From assembly GCA_913062625.1 (NCBI GenBank), contig CAJXWP010000017.1, positions 1 to 41,176 of the forward strand: a stretch of 41,176 nucleotides of DNA, read 5' to 3'. The stretch is from an uncultured Haliea sp. (lineage in GTDB: Bacteria > Pseudomonadota > Gammaproteobacteria > Pseudomonadales > Halieaceae). The notes beneath the pieces were generated by a model. That model made no database searches, was not told the DNA's origin, and saw only the letters and a program-made list of their open reading frames with translations. Position numbers and translations under genes: made by a program. Numbering within the stretch: position 1 is the stretch's first letter; every line of letters begins with the position of its first letter. This document shows positions 14,900 to 30,659 of this stretch, in pieces.

Positions 14900-16264
14900 C
14901 TAGACCAGCTTCTTTGGATCAAGCAGCGTGGCGAGTTCCTCGCGAGAAATCTCTGTCATTTCGACTGCGACCTCAAGCACAGGTCGCCCTTCCTGATACG
15001 CACGTTTAGCAATTTCGGCAGCTTTGTTATAGCCGACCAGTCCATTTAATGCCGTTACCAGTATCGGGTTTCTAGCCAGATTGGCCGTGATAGTGTCGTG
15101 ATTCACGACAAAGTCTGCAAAGCATTTGTCCGCCATTGCCGTGCAACTGTTAGCCATTAAGGTGATGCTTTGCAACAAATTGAAGGCTATCACCGGTAGC
15201 ATCACATTGAGCTGAAAGTTGCCTGATTGGCCGGCCACTGTAATCGTCGTGTCATTACCAATGACCTGTGCCGATGCCATTGCGACTGCCTCGGGTATGA
15301 CCGGATTGACCTTGCCGGGCATGATGCTGCTGCCCGGTTGCAGGGGTTTGAGGCTGATTTCACCCAGTCCGGACAAGGGTCCGCTATTCATCCATCGTAA
15401 GTCGTTGGCAATCTTCATGAGAGCGACTGCCAGTGCCTTAAGTTGGCCTGAAAGCGCTACTGCCACATCCTGGCTGGCAAGGGCCGCAAAAAAATTGTCT
15501 GCAGGCTCGAATACCTGCCCGCTGGACGCACTCAGATGAAAACAAAAACGTGCCGCGAACTGCGGGTCGGCATTGACGCCCGTACCGACTGCCGTGCCAC
15601 CCTGTGCCAACTGGCGCAGCTGCGAGCGACAATCACTAATCCGCTGGCCTGCCTGTGACAGTTGCGTGCGCCACCCTGATAGTTCCTGTGCCAGACTTAA
15701 TGGCATGGCGTCCATCAGGTGCGTGCGTCCCGTCTTTATGCTGTCTGCTAGCGACTCCTCGCGTGAGGCAATCACATCGGTAAGATGATGCAGTGCGGGC
15801 ATCAGTACATTAGCGAGTGCGAGTTCAGCGCTGACGTGAATTGCGGTGGGAATCACATCGTTGCTACTTTGACTGCAGTTGACATGATCGTTCGGATGCA
15901 CGGCTTGGCCCAGCTGTCGACTCGCAAGGCTGGCAATAACCTCGTTGGCATTCATGTTGGTACTGGTACCAGAACCTGTCTGAAATACATCGACGGGAAA
16001 CTGATCTTGATATTGGCCTTGCGCAATGGCAGCGGCAGCGTTGGCGATACTGTCAGCCAGAGTGGAATCCAGTAATCCCAATTCGGCATTGGCGCGGGCG
16101 GCGGCGGCTTTGATCAGGCCGAGCGTACAAATGAAGTGTGCTGGCATGGCGATGCCGCTAATGAGGAAATTATTGACGGCCCTTTGAGTTTGGGCGCCGT
16201 AAAGTGCAGACGCAGGTAACTGCACCTCGCCCATGCTGTCTTTTTCAGTACGCATGTCACCCAT
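14900..16264 (-). CDS. fumC: Fumarate hydratase class II (iron-independent)
   Basis: Interconverts fumarate and L-malate in the TCA cycle without an iron-sulfur cluster. The start is set at 16264 because ACAGGAG lies 7 bases upstream and MGDMRTEKDSMGEVQLP aligns with known FumC N-termini; the longer frame to 16309 would overlap the acnA end. This gives 454 residues. Motifs include GSGTSTNMNANEV, the His-containing HPNDHVNCSQSSND, TGRTHLMDAMP, and the superfamily signature GSSIMPGKVNP. It follows acnA by 13 bases on the same strand, so the two form an operon. Confidence 0.95.
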   Translation of the reverse strand: MGDMRTEKDSMGEVQLPASALYGAQTQRAVNNFLISGIAMPAHFICTLGLIKAAAARANAELGLLDSTLADSIANAAAAIAQGQYQDQFPVDVFQTGSGTSTNMNANEVIASLASRQLGQAVHPNDHVNCSQSSNDVIPTAIHVSAELALANVLMPALHHLTDVIASREESLADSIKTGRTHLMDAMPLSLAQELSGWRTQLSQAGQRISDCRSQLRQLAQGGTAVGTGVNADPQFAARFCFHLSASSGQVFEPADNFFAALASQDVAVALSGQLKALAVALMKIANDLRWMNSGPLSGLGEISLKPLQPGSSIMPGKVNPVIPEAVAMASAQVIGNDTTITVAGQSGNFQLNVMLPVIAFNLLQSITLMANSCTAMADKCFADFVVNHDTITANLARNPILVTALNGLVGYNKAAEIAKRAYQEGRPVLEVAVEMTEISREELATLLDPKKLV

Positions 16265-16277
16265 GCCGCTACTCCTG

Positions 16278-18953
16278 TCAGGACTGATTAGCAATTCGAT
16301 TGAGCACATAGGTCAGCACCCCGCCTGCGCGGTAATATTCTACCTCCACTGCCGTGTCGAGTCGGGATTGCAGCTGTATTTCGCGACGTTCCCCAGACGG
16401 GTAGTGAATCACCGCTGGCAAGCGTTGCTGTGGCGTTAGCGCGCCCTCGAGGTCGAGGATATCGAAACACTCATCTCCCTGCAGTGCTAACGTCTTGCGC
16501 GTGTCCCCAGACAGAAACTGTAGCGGGAGGACACCCATGCCGACCAAATTTGAGCGGTGTATCCGCTCGAAGCTTTCTACGATAACAGCTTTAACACCCA
16601 GCAGAAGAGTGCCTTTAGCAGCCCAGTCGCGGCTGGATCCGGTGCCGTATTCGCTTCCCGCAACAACCACTGTGCTGATGCCTCGGGACTGGTAGTCCAT
16701 TGCAGCATCGTAAATAAACATCGGTTCGGTAGCGCCATTGAGTCGGGTATAACCCCCTTCCAGCGATGGCGTCATTTCGTTGCGGATACGAATATTCCCA
16801 AAGGTCCCGCGCATCATGACCTGGTGGTTACCGCGCCGCGAACCGTAGGAATTGAAGTCAGTTTCGCTGACACCGTGCGTACGCAGGTACTGCGCTGCAG
16901 GGCTGTCTAGTGGAATCGCTCCGGCCGGGGATATGTGGTCGGTGGTGACGGAGTCACCCAGCATAGCCAGCATGGGTGCAGCCAGAATATTGTGTTGGTT
17001 ACCTTGATACTGCTCTTCAAAGAACGGTGGCAGCTGAATGTAGGTAGAATCTTGTGAAAAAGCGTAGGTGGCACCGTCGCTCGTGTTGATAGATTGCCAT
17101 GTCTGATCACCGTCGAACACGGCGCCGTATTCTTTTTTAAACATGTCCGTATGAACGGTCTGCACCAGGTCAGCAATCTCGGCATTGCTGGGCCAGATGT
17201 CTCGCAGATACACTGGGTTGCCTGCCGGATCTGTTCCCAGGGGTTCCTGGCTCAGATCGATGCGGGTAGTGCCGGCCAAGGCATAGGCCACTACAAGCGG
17301 CGGAGACGCAAGCCAGTTGGCTTTCACCAGTGGGTGAATTCGCCCTTCAAAGTTACGGTTGCCCGACAGTACTGAGCAGGCTACCAGATCATTGGCGGCG
17401 ATAGTCTCTTCTACCACGTCCGGCAGCGGCCCCGAGTTTCCGATACAGGTGGTGCAGCCATAGCCCACCAGATTAAAACCTAGTGCATCTAATGCACTCT
17501 GCAGGCCCGCTTTTTCGAGATAGTCTGTCACCACTTTTGATCCAGGTGCCAGTGAAGATTTTACCCAAGGCTTGCGTTGCAAACCGAGTGCGAGCGCCTT
17601 TTGCGCAACTAATCCAGCACCAATCATCACGGCTGGATTGGAGGTATTGGTACACGAAGTAATGGCCGCAATAACGACATCCCCATGATGCATTGACTCT
17701 GCGGTGCCGGCGAGCGGAAACGCTGTCTCTAGCTGATTGGATTTACCATCCAGTTCGATGAATTGATCGACAGCCTCAGGCAAATCTCGCACCGTGACCC
17801 TGTCCTGCGGGCGTCTGGGGCCCGCGAGATTGGGTTCGACGGTGGACATATCCAACTGCAGTGTGGCGGCGAAATTAGGTGTGATGTAGTTCTGGTCGCG
17901 CCACATGCCCTGTGCTTTGCAGTAAGCCTCCACCAAACAGACAGTGTCTTCATCACGTCCTGTGAGTCGCAGGTAAGTGAGTGTCTGGGCATCAACCGGG
18001 AAGAAGCCACAGGTGGCTCCATACTCTGGCGCCATGTTTGCAATAGTGGCGCGATCAGACAGTGGTAGGTGGTCAAGTCCGCTGCCATAGAATTCTACAA
18101 ACTTGCCCACCACACCCTGTGCCCGCAGCATTTGTACCACCTGCAACACCAAGTCGGTTGCGGTAATGCCTTCGCACATCTGGCCGGTAAGCTCAAAACC
18201 GACAACGTCCGGTATTAGCATTGAGATTGGTTGTCCCAGCATCGCCGCTTCAGCTTCGATGCCGCCAACGCCCCAGCCGAGAACACCCAGGCCATTGATC
18301 ATAGTGGTGTGGCTGTCTGTGCCTACGAGTGTGTCGGGGTAGGCGAGGGGTGTGCTATCGGTGGGTTGCTGCCGTACGACCTGTGCAAGGTATTCTAGGT
18401 TGACCTGATGGCAGATGCCGGTGCCCGGAGGTACCACCCTAAAATCGTCGAACGCACCTTGACCCCATTTAAGGAATTCATAGCGTTCATGGTTGCGTTG
18501 CATTTCCATAGCCACGTTTTGTTCAAAAGCATTGTCGCTGCCAAACTTGTCAATGCTTACTGAGTGGTCGATAACGAGGTCGACCGGCGATAATGGATTA
18601 ATTTTCTTTGGGTCGATGCCCCGTTTGACGAGGGCGTCGCGCATGGCAGCTAGATCCACCACCGCCGGCACGCCGGTAAAATCCTGCATTAGTACGCGTG
18701 CTGGGTGATAGGCGATTTCTTGATCGGAGCCACCCCCTGCGCTAGCTGCCAGAGTCTCGATATCTTCGCGCGTGCAGCTTATGTCGTCCTCGTGTCGCAA
18801 CAAATTTTCGAGAAGAATTTTGCTGCACACAGGGAGGCGGGCGACTGTATTGTGTGTCGTTAGCGTGCCACCATTGATAGCAAAATAATGGTAGATCTTG
18901 CCCTTAACATCCAGCGTCGAAAGCGTATTAAAGGAGTTTGAAGATACAGTCAC
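16278..18953 (-). CDS. acnA: Aconitate hydratase AcnA (IRP/AcnA type)
   Basis: Converts citrate to isocitrate with a [4Fe-4S] cluster. At 891 residues it has the size and order of AcnA/IRP1, not AcnB. The cluster cysteines are seen in AAITSCTNTSNP and in YGCTTCIGNSGPL. DSHTTMINGLGVLGWGVGG and the C-terminal swivel motif GSEYGTGSSRDWAAKG are intact. The start is GTG at 18953, supported by AGGTG seven bases upstream. A plausible -10, TATACT, lies at 18991-18986. fumC follows at once. In E. coli acnA and fumC are both SoxRS-regulated, so the shared operon hints at an oxidative-stress-tolerant TCA segment; no SoxS site was identified here. Confidence 0.96.
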   Translation of the reverse strand: MTVSSNSFNTLSTLDVKGKIYHYFAINGGTLTTHNTVARLPVCSKILLENLLRHEDDISCTREDIETLAASAGGGSDQEIAYHPARVLMQDFTGVPAVVDLAAMRDALVKRGIDPKKINPLSPVDLVIDHSVSIDKFGSDNAFEQNVAMEMQRNHERYEFLKWGQGAFDDFRVVPPGTGICHQVNLEYLAQVVRQQPTDSTPLAYPDTLVGTDSHTTMINGLGVLGWGVGGIEAEAAMLGQPISMLIPDVVGFELTGQMCEGITATDLVLQVVQMLRAQGVVGKFVEFYGSGLDHLPLSDRATIANMAPEYGATCGFFPVDAQTLTYLRLTGRDEDTVCLVEAYCKAQGMWRDQNYITPNFAATLQLDMSTVEPNLAGPRRPQDRVTVRDLPEAVDQFIELDGKSNQLETAFPLAGTAESMHHGDVVIAAITSCTNTSNPAVMIGAGLVAQKALALGLQRKPWVKSSLAPGSKVVTDYLEKAGLQSALDALGFNLVGYGCTTCIGNSGPLPDVVEETIAANDLVACSVLSGNRNFEGRIHPLVKANWLASPPLVVAYALAGTTRIDLSQEPLGTDPAGNPVYLRDIWPSNAEIADLVQTVHTDMFKKEYGAVFDGDQTWQSINTSDGATYAFSQDSTYIQLPPFFEEQYQGNQHNILAAPMLAMLGDSVTTDHISPAGAIPLDSPAAQYLRTHGVSETDFNSYGSRRGNHQVMMRGTFGNIRIRNEMTPSLEGGYTRLNGATEPMFIYDAAMDYQSRGISTVVVAGSEYGTGSSRDWAAKGTLLLGVKAVIVESFERIHRSNLVGMGVLPLQFLSGDTRKTLALQGDECFDILDLEGALTPQQRLPAVIHYPSGERREIQLQSRLDTAVEVEYYRAGGVLTYVLNRIANQS

Positions 18954-23697: not shown

Positions 23698-24777
23698 CTA
23701 GGCATTGACGATAACTCTTGGTGTGCGCTGTGGCATGCGCGTGGTGAGTTCGTAACCGATGGTGTTGGCCCAGCGAGCCACCTCTCCCAGTGGCAGGCCT
23801 GCGCCCCACAGTACAACTTCGGCGCCGCGCTGAACGTGTTCGAGGTCTGTGACATCGACCGTAATCATGTCCATGGAGACACGTCCTGCGAGCGCGGCGC
23901 GTTGCCCCTTGACGAGTACCGGCGTCCCGTTGGGTGCCTCGCGTGGGTAGCCGTCGCCATAGCCAATAGTGACGGTGGCGATGACCGAGGGTCGCTGTGC
24001 AACCCAAGTACCGCCGTAGCCGACAGATTCACCCACTGCAACATTGCGCAGGGCGATCACCGCAGAGGTCAGTGCCATGACGGGCTGCAAGGTTTGTGCA
24101 TTGGGGTGGTCCTGTGCCATCGGCGAATGGCCATACAGCATGTAACCCGGGCGCACCCAGTCATAATGCGCCAGCGGCCAGGCGAGCAGGGCGGCTGAAT
24201 TTGCTGCGCTGCGTGCTGCGCTAAAAGTCAGGCCATCGAAGACGGCGATTTGTTGCGACGTTTGTTCATTGTGCACATCATCTGCCGACGCGAAATGCGT
24301 GTAGGTCACCACGTTGTCAGCAGCATTGGGCGTGGCCATCAAGCGTTGGTAATAGTGCAAGGCATTCGCTGGCGCGGCACCGAGACGATTCATGCCAGTG
24401 TCGACCTTGAGCCAGCAGGTCAACGGCGCAGGTAATACCGCCTTCTCTAACCATTGCAGCTGCTGCTCGTTGTCGATGCTCAGCCATACGTCAAGCTGCG
24501 CTGCAACAGCGAGTTCGCATGCCTCGAAAAGACCCTCCAAAAGGAGTATGGGCAGCGTAATGCCCGCATCACGCAGCACCGCGGCCTCTTCGAGACTGGC
24601 AACAGCAAAAGCATCCGCATGGGATTGCAATGCACCGGCAATGGTTGCTGCACCGTGGCCATAGGCATTGGCTTTCACCACGGCCATCAATTTAGAGTGC
24701 GGCGCCAGTTTGCGAGCCACGCTGACGTTGTGTTTCAGTGCGCCAAGATCCAGTCTTGCTTGAGTGGGTCTGGCCAT
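23698..24777 (-). CDS. alr: Alanine racemase
   Basis: PLP-dependent racemase that interconverts L- and D-alanine. At 359 residues it has the usual length. The PLP lysine is Lys35 in MAVVKANAYGHG. The second catalytic residue is Tyr254 in SVGYGGTWVA. KVDTGMNRLG, TIGYGDGYPR and GRVSMDMITVDVTDL are conserved. The ATG overlaps the stop of the upstream transaminase gene (TGATG), implying translational coupling. The D-Ala produced is a substrate of that transaminase and of cell-wall synthesis. This could be either a biosynthetic or a catabolic alr/dadX; the operon context favours a role in D-amino acid interconversion. Confidence 0.96.
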   Translation of the reverse strand: MARPTQARLDLGALKHNVSVARKLAPHSKLMAVVKANAYGHGAATIAGALQSHADAFAVASLEEAAVLRDAGITLPILLLEGLFEACELAVAAQLDVWLSIDNEQQLQWLEKAVLPAPLTCWLKVDTGMNRLGAAPANALHYYQRLMATPNAADNVVTYTHFASADDVHNEQTSQQIAVFDGLTFSAARSAANSAALLAWPLAHYDWVRPGYMLYGHSPMAQDHPNAQTLQPVMALTSAVIALRNVAVGESVGYGGTWVAQRPSVIATVTIGYGDGYPREAPNGTPVLVKGQRAALAGRVSMDMITVDVTDLEHVQRGAEVVLWGAGLPLGEVARWANTIGYELTTRMPQRTPRVIVNA

Positions 24778-25634
24778 CAGAAATCAAACTTATGAGTGGC
24801 ATAAAGTGTTTGCGCCATCAGCCATACATCACCGATGTTGCCGTCTGCGACAGGCTTTTCGTCAACCGCGATCACCGGTACGATATCCCTACTGGAACTG
24901 GATAGCCATATCTCATCAGCGTCGAGCAGTTCGGCTAATGTGACGACGCGTTCTTGGACGGCAATACTGCCATCACGACGCAAAATTTCCAGTAGTGTGT
25001 TGCGGGTTATACCCGGCAGTTTTTGTTCATCCAATAACGGGGTTGCAACGATACCCTTTTTAATAACGTAGACGTTGCACGAAGAGGCCTCCGTGATTTC
25101 ATCTCGGTCGTTGTAGAGAATGGTTTCATTATGCTGTCTACTGTGGCTTTGCTGATAATGCATAACATTACCCAACAGTGAGGTCGATTTAATATTACAA
25201 CGTTGCCAGCGCAGATCCTTTGCCGTTATAACGGTAAAGGGTGTTGTCGCCTTTTTGTCTGCTATCGGTGGCGATGGAATCTCATAAGCGAACGCAAAAA
25301 TAGTGGGTGCGACGTCATTGGGGTAGGCGTGATTGCGCTTTGTATCGGCGCCGCGGCTGACATGGAAATAAAGTCCAAGGTTGCCATTGCCGTTGCGCGC
25401 AATCAGTTGTGATGCAATTTCACGCCAATGGTCGTAGTCCACTCGCAACTCTATTTCTATCGCGTCTAGTCCGTCCTGCATGCGCTTGAGGTGCGAAGCA
25501 AGGCCGACGAGTTTGCCGTCGTAGGAGGGCACAACTTCATAGATGCCGTCGCCAAATAGAAAGCCGCGATCCATCGGCGAGATGCGGGCCTCGTTCATCG
25601 GAATATAATTGCCGTTTAGATAAACAATACTCAT
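24777..25634 (-). CDS. dat: D-amino acid (D-alanine) transaminase
   Basis: Fold-type IV PLP transaminase that exchanges the amino group between D-alanine and 2-oxoglutarate, giving pyruvate and D-glutamate. The 285-residue protein has the D-alanine transaminase opening (YLNGNYIPMNEARISPMDRG). The diagnostic RxH carboxylate-binding motif is Arg100-Asn-His102 in SRGADTKRNHAYP. The PLP lysine is Lys149 in RCNIKSTSLLGN. Glu182 lies in DEITEASSCNVYV. The RxH pair separates it from branched-chain transaminases. It lies 30 bases after the DUF4392 gene and overlaps alr. AGGT precedes the ATG at 6 bases. Confidence 0.93.
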   Translation of the reverse strand: MSIVYLNGNYIPMNEARISPMDRGFLFGDGIYEVVPSYDGKLVGLASHLKRMQDGLDAIEIELRVDYDHWREIASQLIARNGNGNLGLYFHVSRGADTKRNHAYPNDVAPTIFAFAYEIPSPPIADKKATTPFTVITAKDLRWQRCNIKSTSLLGNVMHYQQSHSRQHNETILYNDRDEITEASSCNVYVIKKGIVATPLLDEQKLPGITRNTLLEILRRDGSIAVQERVVTLAELLDADEIWLSSSSRDIVPVIAVDEKPVADGNIGDVWLMAQTLYATHKFDF

Positions 25635-25664
25635 TCATATACCTGTTGTTTCACTGCAGCCTCG

Positions 25665-26513
25665 CTATATTGCGAGTGGCAAAAAATGTGTGAGCATGCG
25701 CAGCTGCTCAATGATGTTTGCTCCCTCAAATAACGGTAGCCCGTCTTCGGTGAGCGTGTTTTCTCTGGTCACCCCATCAACGCTGCCCCGATCAGAGAGA
25801 TACTGAAGCAGCTCCTCCGGCGAGATTTTCGCCAGCAGGTCCTGCTGCGACCATAAACCCAAAAAAGCGATTAGGCCATAGGCACCCCAGTTGGAGACAT
25901 CGGCTACCAGCAGCTCATTGCAGCAGGTAATCGAGGCGGTGATGTCCAGGTCGGTCAGCGTTCTGGCTATATTGCCCATGCCGATTTCATTGCCACCATC
26001 CCCAATTGCAATGGTAGGGCAATTCGCCTGACTGATGAAGGGGTCGAAATAAAAACAGTGAGCGGTAATGTCTTCCCCTCGCATATTATAGTAATGGCCA
26101 TCTGCGGCAATGCCAGGACGCTCGATTGCGACGATAGCCTGCGGTTGCAAGGCCAATAGTTGCGTCGTCGCTTCCCTATATGCCGCCTCTTGGTTGCGTG
26201 CGGTTAACGGTAAAATGCGATAGTCAGTAGCGAGTGCGTGTGACAGCGGTGCTCCACATGCTATATAGGGGCGTGCCCCCAGCGTTTCCAAAGCCTGATA
26301 CAGCGCTATGGCGCCGACTGGCCCATCGGTTTCAAAGGTGCCGAGCACGGGAAATCCCGTACCAATGATAACTGCGCCGGTGATGTCTCGCAGGTGTCTG
26401 GCGGCGCGCAGATAGTAGCCGGGCTGGAGGGCTGCTTGGGCGACGGTCATGTGGCGCAGATTTCTCGACACTAACAGCTGTTCAATGGACTCGCTCAGTT
26501 GCTGCTCGTACAT
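25665..26513 (-). CDS. DUF4392 protein, homologue of the C-terminal half of D-glutamate cyclase
   Basis: A 282-residue cytosolic protein of the DUF4392 family (D-glutamate cyclase-like C-terminal domain). Visible family motifs are VIIGTGFPVLGTFETDGPVG near residue 47, IERPGIAADGHYYNMRG, and the glycine-rich IAIGDGGNEIGMGNI around residue 160. The start is set at 26513, because the ATG there overlaps the pxpC stop as TAATG; the frame runs 27 bases further upstream to another ATG but loses this coupling. In vertebrates DGLUCY carries this domain fused behind a DUF1445 domain and turns D-glutamate into 5-oxo-D-proline. Here the partner domain is encoded separately at 28873-29661. The cyclase activity is inferred from homology. 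Confidence 0.85.
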   Translation of the reverse strand: MYEQQLSESIEQLLVSRNLRHMTVAQAALQPGYYLRAARHLRDITGAVIIGTGFPVLGTFETDGPVGAIALYQALETLGARPYIACGAPLSHALATDYRILPLTARNQEAAYREATTQLLALQPQAIVAIERPGIAADGHYYNMRGEDITAHCFYFDPFISQANCPTIAIGDGGNEIGMGNIARTLTDLDITASITCCNELLVADVSNWGAYGLIAFLGLWSQQDLLAKISPEELLQYLSDRGSVDGVTRENTLTEDGLPLFEGANIIEQLRMLTHFLPLAI

Positions 26514-27448
26514 TATCGACGCTCTTGCAAAGGCTTGCACAGGGTAAAACGCCGCGCCAACTCAAGGGCCTTGCGTGCGGTGTGATGCGTTATGGGTGCA
26601 AAGTGCACGCTGCTCCCGGGCACCAATTGGGTCATCCGTGCCGCATCCAGCGACAACGCTGCGCCAATTTTAGGGTAGCCCCCGATGGTCTGACGGTCAT
26701 TGAGCAGCACGATCGGTTGTCCATCTGGCGGTAATTGGATTGCGCCAAAGCAGATGCCTTCGGATAACACACCCTCGATATCGCAGGTTATGGCAGGCCC
26801 TTCCAGTCGATAGCCCATGCGATCGCAGCGCTCGGATATTGTATAGGTGCTTCCGAAAAATCGACGTTGCTCTACCCGGTTGAAATGGCCCTGCTGATAC
26901 CCCGGAATGACGCGCACCGTTAGCGTCTTCTGATAGCGAGGTCTGTCTCTGGCAGCCAAATAATACTGTTTGCGTGCGTTTGTAGTGGGGCAGGGCAGTT
27001 GATCGCCAGCCTGCAAGCTGCGCCCTTGTAAGCCGCCGATATTTTCCCTCACCACTGTTGCGGTACTGCCAAAACGCGCTTCTATGGTAAAGCCATCCGC
27101 TACGCCGAAATAACTGCGGCAGCCTGTTCGGGCAAAGCCGACCTGTATGCTGTCTCCGGCGCAGACGCGTTGCACCTCCCATAAAGGCTTGTCCTGGCCG
27201 TTAATGCTGAGCGGCATGGGCGCACCGGTGAGGCAAATGTAGGTATCGACGAGGGTTTCGAGCTGCAGGCCACCAACACTGATTTCGATGGCGGTGCTAG
27301 CGGGCGAGTTTTGCAGTAGACGGTTACAGTAGTGAAATGCTTCCCGATCCATTGGCCCGCCATTGCTTAGCCCGAGGCGGTGCTGACCTTGTCGTCCGCT
27401 ATCTTGCAGCAGGCTGAGCATGCCTGGTTGCACTACGCGCATACTCAT
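26513..27448 (-). CDS. pxpC: 5-oxoprolinase subunit C (PxpC; biotin-dependent carboxylase-like, KipA family)
   Basis: Subunit of the ATP-dependent PxpABC enzyme that hydrolyses 5-oxoproline (pyroglutamate) to glutamate. The 311-residue protein starts with MSMRVVQPGMLSLLQDSGRQ and keeps the family's LGLSNGGPMDREAF near residue 25-38, the GICFGAIQLPPDGQPIVLLND region and TIGGYPKIGAALSLD. The start overlaps the pxpB stop by 4 bases (ATGA). Old annotations call it allophanate hydrolase subunit 2 or KipA. Confidence 0.93.
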   Translation of the reverse strand: MSMRVVQPGMLSLLQDSGRQGQHRLGLSNGGPMDREAFHYCNRLLQNSPASTAIEISVGGLQLETLVDTYICLTGAPMPLSINGQDKPLWEVQRVCAGDSIQVGFARTGCRSYFGVADGFTIEARFGSTATVVRENIGGLQGRSLQAGDQLPCPTTNARKQYYLAARDRPRYQKTLTVRVIPGYQQGHFNRVEQRRFFGSTYTISERCDRMGYRLEGPAITCDIEGVLSEGICFGAIQLPPDGQPIVLLNDRQTIGGYPKIGAALSLDAARMTQLVPGSSVHFAPITHHTARKALELARRFTLCKPLQERR

Positions 27449-28125
27449 GCCAGATCGCCTCCCAGTGTCACAAAGCGCTCGCGACTGATGGGTTCAAAGC
27501 GCACTGTGTCGCCGACAGATACCGGCATGGAGGGTTGGACGTCGGGGTCGAACATTGGCACTGGACAGCGGCCGATCAGGTTCCAACCACCGGGCGAAAC
27601 AGAAGGGTAAACGGCGGTTTGTCGATCGGCTATAGCAACGGAGCCTCGCGGAACAAGGGCTCTGGGTGTCGCCAAGCGCGGCGCCGCAATGCGTTCATCC
27701 ACTTCTCCTAGGTAGGCAAAGCCGGGCGCGAAACCAATTGCGTAGACTCTGTATTCGGCGCTTGTGTGCAGCTCAACCACTCCACTGATAGGCAGGTCGG
27801 CGCGCTCAGCGAGCAACTCTAGATCGGCACCTACCTCAGGGGCATAGTAAACCGGCAGCACGACAGTGCGATGCCCGAGGGCGGCAGGTGCGGACACATT
27901 GCTCACGACATCTCGTATGCGCCTTGCGACACTTAAGTGGTCGGTACGTAAAGGGTTGTAGAGAATCAAGACAGACGCATAGGAGGGCACTAAGTCGACA
28001 AGGTCCTCGCCCATCACATGTTCGATGGCGCGGGTAGCGGCCTGGACGCGAGCGGACGTCTGAGTATCCATGACGTCCCCAAAATAGACCATTAGGGCAT
28101 CCTCGCCCACTATGCGCAGCTTCAC
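27445..28125 (-). CDS. pxpB: 5-oxoprolinase subunit B (PxpB; KipI family)
   Basis: Second subunit of PxpABC. It has 226 residues and a GTG start 6 bases after the pxpA stop. The N-terminal MKLRIVGEDALMVYFGD and the YAIGFAPGFAYLGEVDERIAAPR motif (about 130-152) are typical, followed by VPRGSVAIADRQTAVYPSVSPGGWNLIGR, which is the conserved cyclophilin-like core. The KipI name refers to a sporulation kinase inhibitor in Bacillus; the surrounding pxpA and pxpC support 5-oxoprolinase here. Confidence 0.93.
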   Translation of the reverse strand: MKLRIVGEDALMVYFGDVMDTQTSARVQAATRAIEHVMGEDLVDLVPSYASVLILYNPLRTDHLSVARRIRDVVSNVSAPAALGHRTVVLPVYYAPEVGADLELLAERADLPISGVVELHTSAEYRVYAIGFAPGFAYLGEVDERIAAPRLATPRALVPRGSVAIADRQTAVYPSVSPGGWNLIGRCPVPMFDPDVQPSMPVSVGDTVRFEPISRERFVTLGGDLA

Positions 28126-28131
28126 TGTGAT

Positions 28132-28863
28132 TCAGCCACCGTCTACCAACGCACGAATCGCTTCGATGGATTGCACGCTTTCAGGATTGTCACCGTGGAC
28201 GCAAAGGGTATCGACTTGTAGTGCAATGATGTGGCCGCTCACGCTGGTTACGGTGCTGTCGCGCCGCAATTGCTGCACCTGCGCCAGCATGCGCTCGCGG
28301 TCGTGCACGGCGTCTGGCTGGCTTCTGCGCACGAGACTGCCGTCGTCGCCATAGCAGCGATCGGCGAATGCCTCGAACAACAGCTGTATGCCGGCAGCCT
28401 TCGCTTCCTCTCGGTGCCCATCGGCCTGCAGTGTGGATTGCATCATCAGTGTCATTGGTCGGTGGTAGCTGCCCATCGCATGGAAAATGGCGGCGCGCAC
28501 GCCGTCCTGTGCCATCATATCGTGATACAGGGCACCGTGCGGTTTGACGTAGGAGAGTGCCAACCCTTGACTCTGCGCCATGCCCTCCAATGCTGACACC
28601 TGATAGTGCAGGCAGGCAATGATTTCATCGCGGCTGAGTGTCATGCTGCGACGGCCAAAACCGACAATATCGGGGTAGGCAGGATGAGCACCGATGGCGA
28701 CGCCGTGCTGCGCCGCCAGCGCTAGCGTGTTACGCATGGTCAGGGGGTCACCTGCATGGAAGCCGCAAGCGATACTCGCTTGGTCGATATAGGGCATGAC
28801 GGCAGCATCATGCCCCATGTGCCAGTTGCCATAACTTTCGCCCAGATCGCAGTTGAGTTGCAT
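28132..28863 (-). CDS. pxpA: 5-oxoprolinase subunit A (PxpA; LamB/YcsF family)
   Basis: First subunit of PxpABC, a 243-residue TIM-like (YcsF) protein. It opens with the invariant MQLNCDLGESYGNW, then AAVMPYIDQASIACGFHAGDP, which bears the metal-binding-like Asp/His set. HPAYPDIVGFGRR, VKPHGALYHDM and the LCVHGDNPESV ending are conserved. GGGAG precedes the ATG. It is 9 bases after the DUF1445 gene and 6 bases before pxpB. The order DUF1445-pxpA-pxpB-pxpC-DUF4392 is very compact. Confidence 0.95.
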   Translation of the reverse strand: MQLNCDLGESYGNWHMGHDAAVMPYIDQASIACGFHAGDPLTMRNTLALAAQHGVAIGAHPAYPDIVGFGRRSMTLSRDEIIACLHYQVSALEGMAQSQGLALSYVKPHGALYHDMMAQDGVRAAIFHAMGSYHRPMTLMMQSTLQADGHREEAKAAGIQLLFEAFADRCYGDDGSLVRRSQPDAVHDRERMLAQVQQLRRDSTVTSVSGHIIALQVDTLCVHGDNPESVQSIEAIRALVDGG

Positions 28864-28872
28864 TGATTCTCC

Positions 28873-29661
28873 CTATTCTTGCAGCACGGCCAATTGGCTG
28901 TTGCGCACATCAGTGATTAGCATACACCCTGGGCTGTGGGTGATGGCAAGCGGCAGTCTGGCCGCAGCTAAAGCCACTTGTGGAGTGACACCGCAGGCCC
29001 AGAACAGCGGAATTTCAGTCTCCTGTATCTGCACTGCATCGCCATAATCCGGTCGTTCCAGATCCTCAATGCCGATTAATCTGGGGTCGCCCAAGTGAAT
29101 GGGCGCGCCATGCACGGCGGGAAACCGTGTACAGATTTGAATGGCGCGAATGGCATCGCTGGCGTTGAACGGGCGCATACTGACCACCATCTTACTCGAG
29201 AAAGGTCCCGCGTCAGCACAGTCAATATCGGTTTGATACATGGGCACGTTCAGGTTCTGGCTCACATTGCGCACCTCCAAGCCATCGTCTAACAACGCCT
29301 CCTCAAAAGAAAACGAACAACCCAGTGCAAAACACACCAGGTCATCGCGCCACAGTGCGGTGATATCCTTGGTCTCTTCCGTCATTTTTCCCTGACGGAA
29401 CACTCGGTAGCGGGGCACATCAGTGCGGATGTCAATATCTCCTAAGCCGGGCAACGCTGTCGCGCCTGCGTCTCCCACGGCAATCAGTGGGCAAGGCTTA
29501 GGATTTAGCTGGCAAAAACGGAGGAAATCGCTGGCATTGGCTGCAGGGAGAATCACGACATTGCATTGCACAAAGCCCGCTGCCATGCCCGAGGTGTTGC
29601 CAGTATGCTTTCCTGACCGTATCGCGCGGCGCAGCTCAAGCGGCGTTACTGTGCTGTTCAT
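28873..29661 (-). CDS. DUF1445 protein, homologue of the N-terminal half of D-glutamate cyclase
   Basis: A 262-residue protein of the DUF1445 / 'putative hydro-lyase' family. Motifs are the start [18 protein letters not shown] with the conserved HTGNTSG (about 19-25), [40 protein letters not shown], and the C-terminal [14 protein letters not shown] and CGVTPQVAL signatures. The same domain is the N-terminal half of vertebrate D-glutamate cyclase DGLUCY. It is the first gene of the train, with a strong AAGGAAGG Shine-Dalgarno. It probably works with the DUF4392 protein at 25665-26513, or as a stand-alone lyase or epimerase on 5-oxoproline; both remain inference. Confidence 0.88.
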
Positions 29662-29819: not shown

Positions 29820-30659
29820 GTGATCAACACACTCCTCGACGTACTAACGCCCCAGTCTCTGGGTGAGAATAAATTTAGTGCCGGCAATATGCATCCCGCC
29901 GCTTTTAGAGTGTATGGCGGTCAGGTATTGGCTCAGTGCGTCAGTGCTGCCGTGGCAACTGTTGCCTCCGACCGTATTCTGCATTCGCAGCACGCGTACT
30001 TTCTGCGCCCGGGCGATCCGACTAAACCCATTATATTCGAGGTGGAACCTGCCCGAGACGGTCTGAGCTTTAGTTCCCGGCGCGTGGTCGCACTGCAGGG
30101 AGGCAAGCCTATTCTGGTCAGTTCGCTGTCATTTCAGATGCCTTCGACGGGGGATGACTATCAGCCTGATATGCCGAAGGTGCCGCCTCCAGAGACGCTA
30201 CCCAGTGAGCGCCAGTTGAGTTTGGAACACAATAATCTGGACGAAAGCTTCATGATTACTACCGGAGAAGACTTGGATATTCGTCTTGTAGAACCCGTAG
30301 ACTGGGACAATCCGGTGGCACGAGAACCGCTCTTGCAGGCGTGGATGAAGACAACCGGCCCGATGCCTGACGAACCCGGACTGCATCAGGCGGTGCTTGC
30401 GTATTTGTCTGATGCATTTCTTATTGATGTTTGCTTGATAGCACATGGACGGCATTTTGCGCATGTCGATTTTCAGGTGGCAAGTCTTGACCACGTGCTC
30501 TGGTTTCACGAAGATTTTCGTGCCGATGAATGGTTGTTACATACTGTCAAAGCAGAGCGCATCGGCGGCGGCCGGGGGCTGGCCAGCGGTAATTTCTACA
30601 CTCGCGAGGGGCGTCTTGTCGCAACGACCATGCAGCAGGGCGTGATGCGGTTTCGCTAG
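29820..30659 (+). CDS. tesB: Acyl-CoA thioesterase II (TesB family)
   Basis: Hydrolyses acyl-CoA to free acid and CoA. The 279-residue double hot-dog protein starts with GTG at 29820. The N-terminal VYGGQVLAQ (33-41) is the family's entry motif. HSQHAYFLRPGDPTKPI, FSSRRVVALQGGKPI, then the second domain's FLIDVCLIAH and SLDHVLWFHEDFRADEWLLH follow. The final GRLVATTMQQGVMR is the conserved C-terminal motif. Shine-Dalgarno support is weak, but the N-terminus aligns with TesB proteins. It is divergent from the DUF1445 gene, and an acyl-CoA synthetase follows 70 bases downstream. Confidence 0.93.
   Translation: MINTLLDVLTPQSLGENKFSAGNMHPAAFRVYGGQVLAQCVSAAVATVASDRILHSQHAYFLRPGDPTKPIIFEVEPARDGLSFSSRRVVALQGGKPILVSSLSFQMPSTGDDYQPDMPKVPPPETLPSERQLSLEHNNLDESFMITTGEDLDIRLVEPVDWDNPVAREPLLQAWMKTTGPMPDEPGLHQAVLAYLSDAFLIDVCLIAHGRHFAHVDFQVASLDHVLWFHEDFRADEWLLHTVKAERIGGGRGLASGNFYTREGRLVATTMQQGVMRFR

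Follow-up and report, generated by a model that had tools for sequence, protein, structure and literature searches.

The reviewed part of PMC5885031 gives MurI as the source of D-glutamate (D-Glu) in most Gram-negative bacteria, and its replacement in this role by a D-amino-acid aminotransferase (DAAT) is presented as a general possibility in the section of PMC8788868 cited here. The present work concerns a train of seven genes from an uncultured Haliea sp., in which a gene for a putative enzyme of this kind (dat) is joined to the sole alanine racemase gene (alr) found in the genome and to a 5-oxoproline unit, DUF1445-pxpABC-DUF4392. The window, i.e. the whole stretch of DNA analysed (41,176 nt), is contig C17 of assembly G000 (3.07 Mb in 117 contigs, 96.67% complete). 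We favour, with moderate confidence, the view that the train is one D-amino-acid operon composed of a supply arm and a drain/return arm.

Several described systems resemble parts of this train. The pxpTABC operon of C. glutamicum, as presented in the available part of PMC13274462, has homologues of pxpA, pxpB and pxpC in the same order; the window train differs from it in having no recognised PxpT-like transporter or regulator. Relative to known PxpABC operons, the train adds DUF4392, dat and alr, and its PxpC diverges from the equivalog model. In the ycs/kip operon of B. subtilis, what we take to be a DUF1445 protein, YcsI, is encoded beside pxp genes. The mammalian D-glutamate cyclase DGLUCY (9030617O03Rik), described in the consulted portion of PMC5339696, shares both the DUF1445 and the DUF4392 domains; the two are fused there, whereas here they are specified by two genes flanking pxpABC and known from sequence only. 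Bacterial versions of the two domains as near-adjacent genes are already in print: a table in PMC11580864, on gut bacteria, has a GLUCM_HUMAN row reading 0 and 6, which we take as full-length and split homologues, and the part of that paper at hand gives counts with no visible link to pxpABC, dat, alr or murI. Finally, one passage of PMC6131576 sets aside D-glutamate cyclase and transaminase as more likely anabolic and contains no test of the point.

Layout of the train and its dat-alr pair

The train spans positions 23698-29661 on the minus strand and reads, from 29661 downward, DUF1445, pxpA, pxpB, pxpC, DUF4392, dat and alr. Each gene has a clear Pfam match far above cut-off (in this order PF07286, PF03746, PF02682, PF02626, PF14336, PF01063 and, for alr, PF01168+PF00842), bearing out the seven assignments made in a sequence-only reading of this DNA. 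That reading had also described one-strand genes mostly overlapping or less than 10 bases apart, which holds for five of the six junctions: 9 bp between DUF1445 and pxpA, 6 bp between pxpA and pxpB, a 4-base overlap (ATGA) between pxpB and pxpC, TGATG between dat and alr, and, at the pxpC-DUF4392 junction, either TAATG with an ATG start at 26513 or a 28-base overlap with a GTG start at 26540. The ATG is most likely the DUF4392 start. The widest interval, 30 bp, separates DUF4392 from dat. The seven genes may be co-transcribed. Promoter-like (3) and terminator-like (8) sites stay at chance level, shuffled sequences having means of 5.4 and 6.8, respectively.

The last gene, alr (23698..24777, minus), matches TIGR00492 with 373 bits (cut-off 168) and carries the single PF00842 match in G000, its product being the sole alanine racemase found there; a second alr, like a second pxpA, was sought in G000 and rejected, none having been found. 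The gene before it, dat (24777..25634, minus), encodes a fold type IV D-amino-acid transaminase. Its product has F27, Y32, V34, P36 and R100xH102, with xYxQ replaced by xYxH, i.e. five of the six canonical DAAT motif elements listed in Table 2, the portion of PMC10003956 used here. The carboxylate-trap triad Y32, R100 and H102, equivalent to Y31, R98 and H100 of bsDAAT in that table's source (PMC10003956), is invariant in 20 sequences, and its presence supports the D-amino-acid transaminase named in the sequence-only reading. Identification as IlvE or PabC was rejected, since both of the top-scoring models describe D-amino-acid transaminases and the protein retains the carboxylate trap.

In the supply arm that we propose, Alr would convert L-Ala to D-Ala and Dat would transfer the amino group of D-Ala to 2-oxoglutarate, yielding D-Glu. 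This is the chemistry envisaged for Dat in place of MurI in the relevant section of PMC8788868, where wall D-Glu comes from D-Ala and 2-oxoglutarate.

Missing murI and its complementarity with Dat

No match to the glutamate racemase model (murI, TIGR00067) was obtained in G000, nor in four sampled relatives of the same family (G040, G077, G106 and G134, 99-100% complete). As no glutamate racemase was found, Alr and Dat probably provide all the D-Ala and D-Glu that go into peptidoglycan in this cell. Another MurI-free way is the MurD2/MurL route of Xanthomonas, treated in the cited part of PMC8788868; in contrast, G000 and each of the four relatives have only one MurD above cut-off (MurL itself was not searched). 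The G000 MurD lies on C8, among other Mur-ligase-like matches whose names are inferred from order, and the MurD half of that route is therefore not seen.

The relationship between Dat and murI was assessed in 145 genomes of the order, including G000. A genome was counted as having Dat if it scored at least 125 bits against the window protein, and as having murI if it passed the curated cut-off of that model; the 125-bit threshold was chosen once the list had been seen, the next uncounted genome having a match below 80 bits. Dat without murI was found in 39 genomes, both in 18, murI without Dat in 82 and neither in 6 (Fisher p 2.4e-15). Thus, 39 of the 45 genomes with no murI have Dat, and murI is present in 82 of the 88 with no Dat. 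Because kinship among genomes inflates figures of this kind, tests were repeated at the family level: drawing a single genome from each family gave a median p of 2.3e-6 and a largest p of 3.4e-4 in 200 draws, and shuffling murI inside families gave p 0.03. Genomes with Dat and no murI occur in 20 of the 47 families of this gammaproteobacterial order.

A similar picture emerged from 50 DUF4392-bearing genomes of unstated completeness, hand-picked from the 80 loci described below with preference for longer contigs and isolates. In 14 of them murI exceeds its cut-off. The other 36 have no murI above it, and each has a Dat-like match scoring 130 bits or more, which in three is only a distant one (131-142 bits). 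One of the 36, Colwellia sp. DT_18 (G552, L134), whose genome carries DUF1445-pxpABC-DUF4392-dat, contains a murI-like stretch at C67:130523-130759 (minus) that scores 47 bits over model positions 15-94 and has one TGA and one TAG in frame; it is perhaps a murI remnant. Among the ten DUF4392-positive genomes of a second sample, 398 genomes from the phylum, murI is matched in five (G258, G360, G444, G452 and G185); G000, G472 and G196 are listed without it, and G241 and G270 are not among the matches listed.

Altogether, these data make the supply arm well supported: Alr-Dat most likely makes the D-Ala and D-Glu of the wall, and Dat, judging by its motifs and its distribution, is very probably the source of D-Glu. 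We consider it very improbable that D-Glu comes from some other enzyme (for example DapF, which has this activity in Chlamydia, or an unrecognised racemase, DUF4392 itself being one candidate) and that Dat runs towards D-Ala. The six genomes with neither murI above cut-off nor a close Dat speak for such an enzyme, as does the glutamate racemase activity of Chlamydia DapF mentioned in the reviewed part of PMC5885031; this alternative would leave the strong Dat/murI complementarity unexplained, and 23 genomes that have Dat and no murI have no DUF4392, so that DUF4392 cannot be a general source of D-Glu.

Recurrence of the train and of its parts

PF14336 (DUF4392) is above cut-off in 21 of the 145 order genomes and 10 of the 398 phylum genomes. 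We took 20 neighbourhoods from the order, one per genome above the PF14336 cut-off and leaving out that of the window; 14 of them have all seven genes in order. The incomplete ones are L025 (contig edge), L028 (DUF1445-DUF4392-dat only), L033 (DUF1445 elsewhere), L038 (pxpB and pxpC missing from the locus), L040 (likewise, with DUF1445 elsewhere) and L042 (DUF4392 alone). L038:7058-11410 (G047) and L040:6436-10006 (G003), from one genus, keep pxpA with no pxpB or pxpC between it and DUF4392. DUF1445 accompanies DUF4392 in 20 of the 21 order genomes, elsewhere in the genome for G134, G003 and G103, and is lacking in G082, a genome 87% complete whose locus is at a contig edge. In 19 of the 21, a single PF00842 match adjoins dat; it sits elsewhere in G103 and G138, both with incomplete neighbourhoods.

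A broader set was drawn from titled genome records and comprised the best 80 of 505 confirmed loci, many of them from Halieaceae. This set partly overlaps the 20 neighbourhoods (L087/G523 and G106, for instance, share the same Dat match). By record title, its closest loci come from Halieaceae, among them an uncultured Haliea (88% in DUF4392) and Halioglobus. All seven genes are present in order in 35 loci. In five of these, DUF4392 and dat are separated by a LysR-type gene (Pfam confirmed this identity in two examples), and in two, DUF1445 is followed by a gap of some 500-660 bp. The DUF1445-pxpABC-DUF4392 unit is complete in 70 of the 80, a Dat-like gene is found in 72, mostly adjoining the unit and in a few cases non-adjacent, and alr in 42; of the loci lacking upstream genes, seven start at a contig end. 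The sequence-only reading had put forward the clustering for counting and had considered that the neighbourhood might exist in this genome only. The 14/20 and 35/80 tallies confirm the former and exclude the latter, and a chance cluster was rejected because the same gene order recurs in many genomes. That reading had known of no description of the full set; in open-access titles and abstract openings among the matches listed, with subscription papers mostly outside, none was found for the set or for its tie to murI loss. The enzymes are individually known, and the coupling of the set with murI loss is the new element.

The dat-alr pair also occurs by itself. Four order genomes with no DUF4392 match (G010, G041, G052 and G135) have dat adjoining alr. 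G041, 1.3 Mb in size and rated 100% complete, retains the pair and has no match to murI, DUF1445, pxpA or DUF4392; G135 keeps it with no match to pxpA, DUF1445 or DUF4392. In G010 and G052, which belong to one genus, dat-alr has divergent pxpABC genes upstream, and DUF1445 and DUF4392 are missing there; in G010 (L073:8118-13079, minus) a phosphoribosyltransferase-like gene stands between the two groups. Since such genomes keep dat-alr without the five-gene unit, the pair is the core, and the unit may be absent.

This partial independence raises the question of whether the train merely places under one promoter two unrelated housekeeping modules, a 5-oxoproline damage-repair set (PxpABC with DUF1445/DUF4392) and the wall enzymes Dat and Alr, with no flux between them. 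G041 and G135 would be expected under such an arrangement, as would the 6 of the 80 loci that show DUF1445-pxpABC-DUF4392 with neither dat nor alr in the stretch (L121 is cut by a contig end) and the two phylum genomes, G472 and G444, in which DUF1445-DUF4392 is alone in the stretch fetched. We nonetheless judge it quite unlikely: the Dat-like gene found in 72 of the 80 DUF4392 loci is mostly right beside the unit, DUF1445, DUF4392 and dat remain together without pxp genes in G138, and every named activity converges on D-Glu.

The five-gene unit and the fate of D-Glu

In the one-operon view that we favour, DUF4392, perhaps with DUF1445, would cyclise surplus D-Glu to 5-oxoproline, and ATP-driven PxpABC would open the latter to glutamate, doing the job that the reverse MurI reaction does elsewhere, from D-Glu to the L-Glu pool. 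A drain/return role of the five-gene unit is a tentative proposal that may well be right, though it falls a little short of probable.

DUF1445 (28873..29661, minus; 262 aa), the first gene of the train, matches PF07286 with 217 bits and NF003969, "putative hydro-lyase", with 408 bits (cut-off 324). Its product is homologous to the solved structures 3db9 and 2pif, and an AlphaFold2 model built from 14 aligned sequences (predicted local distance difference test score 86.9) superimposes on 2pif with a template-modelling score of about 0.9. A Foldseek search with this model returned 2pif and 3db9 and, beyond these, under E 0.001, only the NrpR-like 3nek, a weak match (best E 1e-4) with a poor fit; the fold search yielded no mechanism. 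Cysteines 57, 115, 148, 177 and 223 are invariant in 17 sequences, and 57, 115, 148 and 223 are also present in 3db9. The D-glutamate cyclase (EC 4.2.1.48) domain pair is completed by DUF4392 (GLUCM-like_C; 25665..26513, minus, as read from the ATG start, the open reading frame also being open from GTG 26540; PF14336, 218 bits), a homologue of the C-terminal domain of the mammalian enzyme. It matches the TON_0340 structures 4dwz/4fc5 at 2e-29 and keeps the metal-site acids E59, D61, E115, D157, E161 and D246 of that protein, which correspond to E70, D72, E140, D181, E185 and D266 (numbering from the GTG) and are invariant in 21 sequences. TON_0340 itself is reported, in the part of PMC5132392 consulted, as a weak Mn-dependent phosphatase.

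Family models recognise all three 5-oxoprolinase subunits, PxpA and PxpB through NCBIfam cut-offs and PxpC through the domain model TIGR00724. Subunit A is encoded by pxpA (LamB/YcsF; 28132..28863, minus; PF03746, 297 bits; NF003816, 325 bits, cut-off 213), the sole PF03746 match in G000; subunit B by pxpB (CT_C_D; 27445..28125, minus, GTG start; PF02682, 230 bits; TIGR00370, 165 bits, cut-off 145.55); and subunit C by pxpC (CT_A_B; 26513..27448, minus; PF02626, 273 bits; TIGR00724, 243 bits, cut-off 230.2).

A number of observations weigh against the two-arm reading. For two enzymes the assignment is less than complete: the best two Dat models both score under cut-off (NF005209, 235 bits against 320; TIGR01121, 216 against 277.45), and the PxpC equivalog NF045499 gives 212 bits, below its cut-off of 500. 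The Dat/murI link weakens within families, with p 0.08 in the pooled 10 families that are mixed for murI. Eighteen order genomes with Dat retain murI and six have neither gene, which means that there is a further source of D-Glu or that genes were missed; of the six, G092 and G113 have partial murI matches below cut-off, and the D-Glu source of G039, G059, G076 and G105 is unexplained, G039, G076 and G105 sharing family f40. In the 50 DUF4392-bearing genomes, the association between train alr and murI is not significant (murI in 3 of 20 with alr and 11 of 30 without; p 0.12). For the return arm in particular, 23 of the 39 order genomes with Dat and no murI have no DUF4392, and within Dat-positive genomes DUF4392 is not tied to murI absence (16/21 vs 23/36, p 0.39); the arm is therefore no requirement, and its association with murI loss cannot be separated from dat. 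For the same reasons, DUF4392 as a general MurI replacement was rejected. (murI is missing from 0 of 15 genomes with DUF1445 and no DUF4392 vs 16 of 21 with DUF4392, p 3e-6, dat not being held constant.) Among the nine further DUF4392-positive genomes of the phylum sample, DUF1445-pxpABC-DUF4392-dat stands in G360 and, minus pxpA, in G258; G472 and G444 have the DUF1445-DUF4392 pair already mentioned, and G452 has a DUF1445 gene beside a giant frame, while the stretches fetched around DUF4392 in G185, G196, G241 and G270 show no other train genes. The giant frame of G452 (L162:5683-16440, minus) is 3586 aa long, contains DUF4392 in two places and matches DUF4781 weakly; it is directly preceded by the DUF1445 gene (L162:16576-17898).

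Also unfavourable to that reading is the presence of transporter-type genes next to the unit in 3 of 5 non-Halieaceae loci (ten flanking frames scanned): DctM, of TRAP type, upstream in Marinomonas (L157:3718-5025, plus), SBP_bac_3 and EamA upstream in Alkalimonas (L142:1044-2799, plus), and a solute-binding protein downstream in Marinobacterium (L109:12291-13367, plus). These would suit a catabolic or detoxifying operon in which D-Glu, released by wall turnover or taken from the medium, would either become L-Glu through cyclisation and hydrolysis or be converted by Dat to 2-oxoglutarate and D-Ala, the latter becoming L-Ala through Alr. The reaction catalysed by Dat is reversible, the DUF1445-pxpABC-DUF4392 unit is conserved, and 22 of the 80 loci combine it with dat and no alr (13 of the cABCDT arrangement and 9 of the cABCDlT), all of which agrees with catabolism. 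For the Haliea train, we regard this as unlikely. Since its alr is the sole one found in G000 and murI is missing, the enzymes of the train can hardly serve catabolism alone; moreover, unlike in pxpTABC of C. glutamicum (as far as the available part of PMC13274462 goes), a scan of 23 other proteins of the window showed no amino-acid transporter. In some relatives whose unit adjoins transporter-type genes, a catabolic role may hold. The single route drawn in the sequence-only reading thus stands as regards its genes, their clustering and Dat, but recycling or detoxifying D-Glu as its primary role is not supported: with the sole alr in the train and murI not found, alr-dat looks like a biosynthetic supply of wall D-Ala and D-Glu.

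Stereochemistry sets a further constraint on the return arm. The mammalian DUF1445+DUF4392 fusion protein converts D-Glu to 5-oxo-D-proline in the work reported in the cited part of PMC5339696, and C. glutamicum PxpABC hydrolyses 5-oxo-L-proline according to the corresponding part of PMC13274462. The proposed path from D-Glu through 5-oxoproline to glutamate would thus need an inversion of configuration that is not accounted for; if PxpABC acted on the D-lactam, D-Glu would form again, in a futile loop. 5-Oxoproline is not favourably hydrolysed unless ATP drives the reaction, and the direction from D-Glu to lactam is therefore favoured for the cyclase. A literature search on 5-oxo-D-proline in bacteria was unproductive, the matches listed being mostly metabolomics by title.

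We also envisaged a stricter version, in which the operon would be a two-arm, one-way substitute for glutamate racemase: Alr-Dat would build D-Glu, and DUF4392, DUF1445 and PxpABC would turn it into L-Glu, with inversion at the lactam stage. Cofactor-free racemases of the two-cysteine type are known, and DUF1445 could be a 5-oxoproline racemase of this kind, acting via C115 and C223. This idea draws solely on the invariant cysteines, and the fold comparison speaks neither for nor against it. The release of 5-oxo-D-proline by the fused mammalian enzyme (in the consulted portion of PMC5339696) argues against a racemase, and we hold the stricter version to be improbable. If DUF1445 were such an enzyme, the two domains of mammalian D-glutamate cyclase would have separate jobs.

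As to the surroundings of the train, an acyl-CoA ligase gene follows alr by 65 bp on the same strand and, on the other side, a plus-strand acyl-CoA thioesterase gene begins at 29820. When the 23 other window proteins were scanned, the transporter-type matches comprised one protein of the AI-2E family, one ammonium transporter and an RND pair. Elsewhere in the window, the frames of a fumarase-type lyase (14900-16309) and an aconitase (16278-18953), both minus, overlap by 32 bases (16278-16309); the listed start of the former may sit too far upstream.

In conclusion, the train may explain how Haliea-like bacteria live without the usual glutamate racemase. In the window, replacement of MurI is tied to a conserved 5-oxoproline unit as well as to the sole alr found in the genome; if this reading is true, a block of Alr should stop the supply of D-Ala and D-Glu together. 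The train is also a concrete place in which to learn the functions of bacterial DUF1445 and DUF4392, and hence of each half of the mammalian D-glutamate cyclase.

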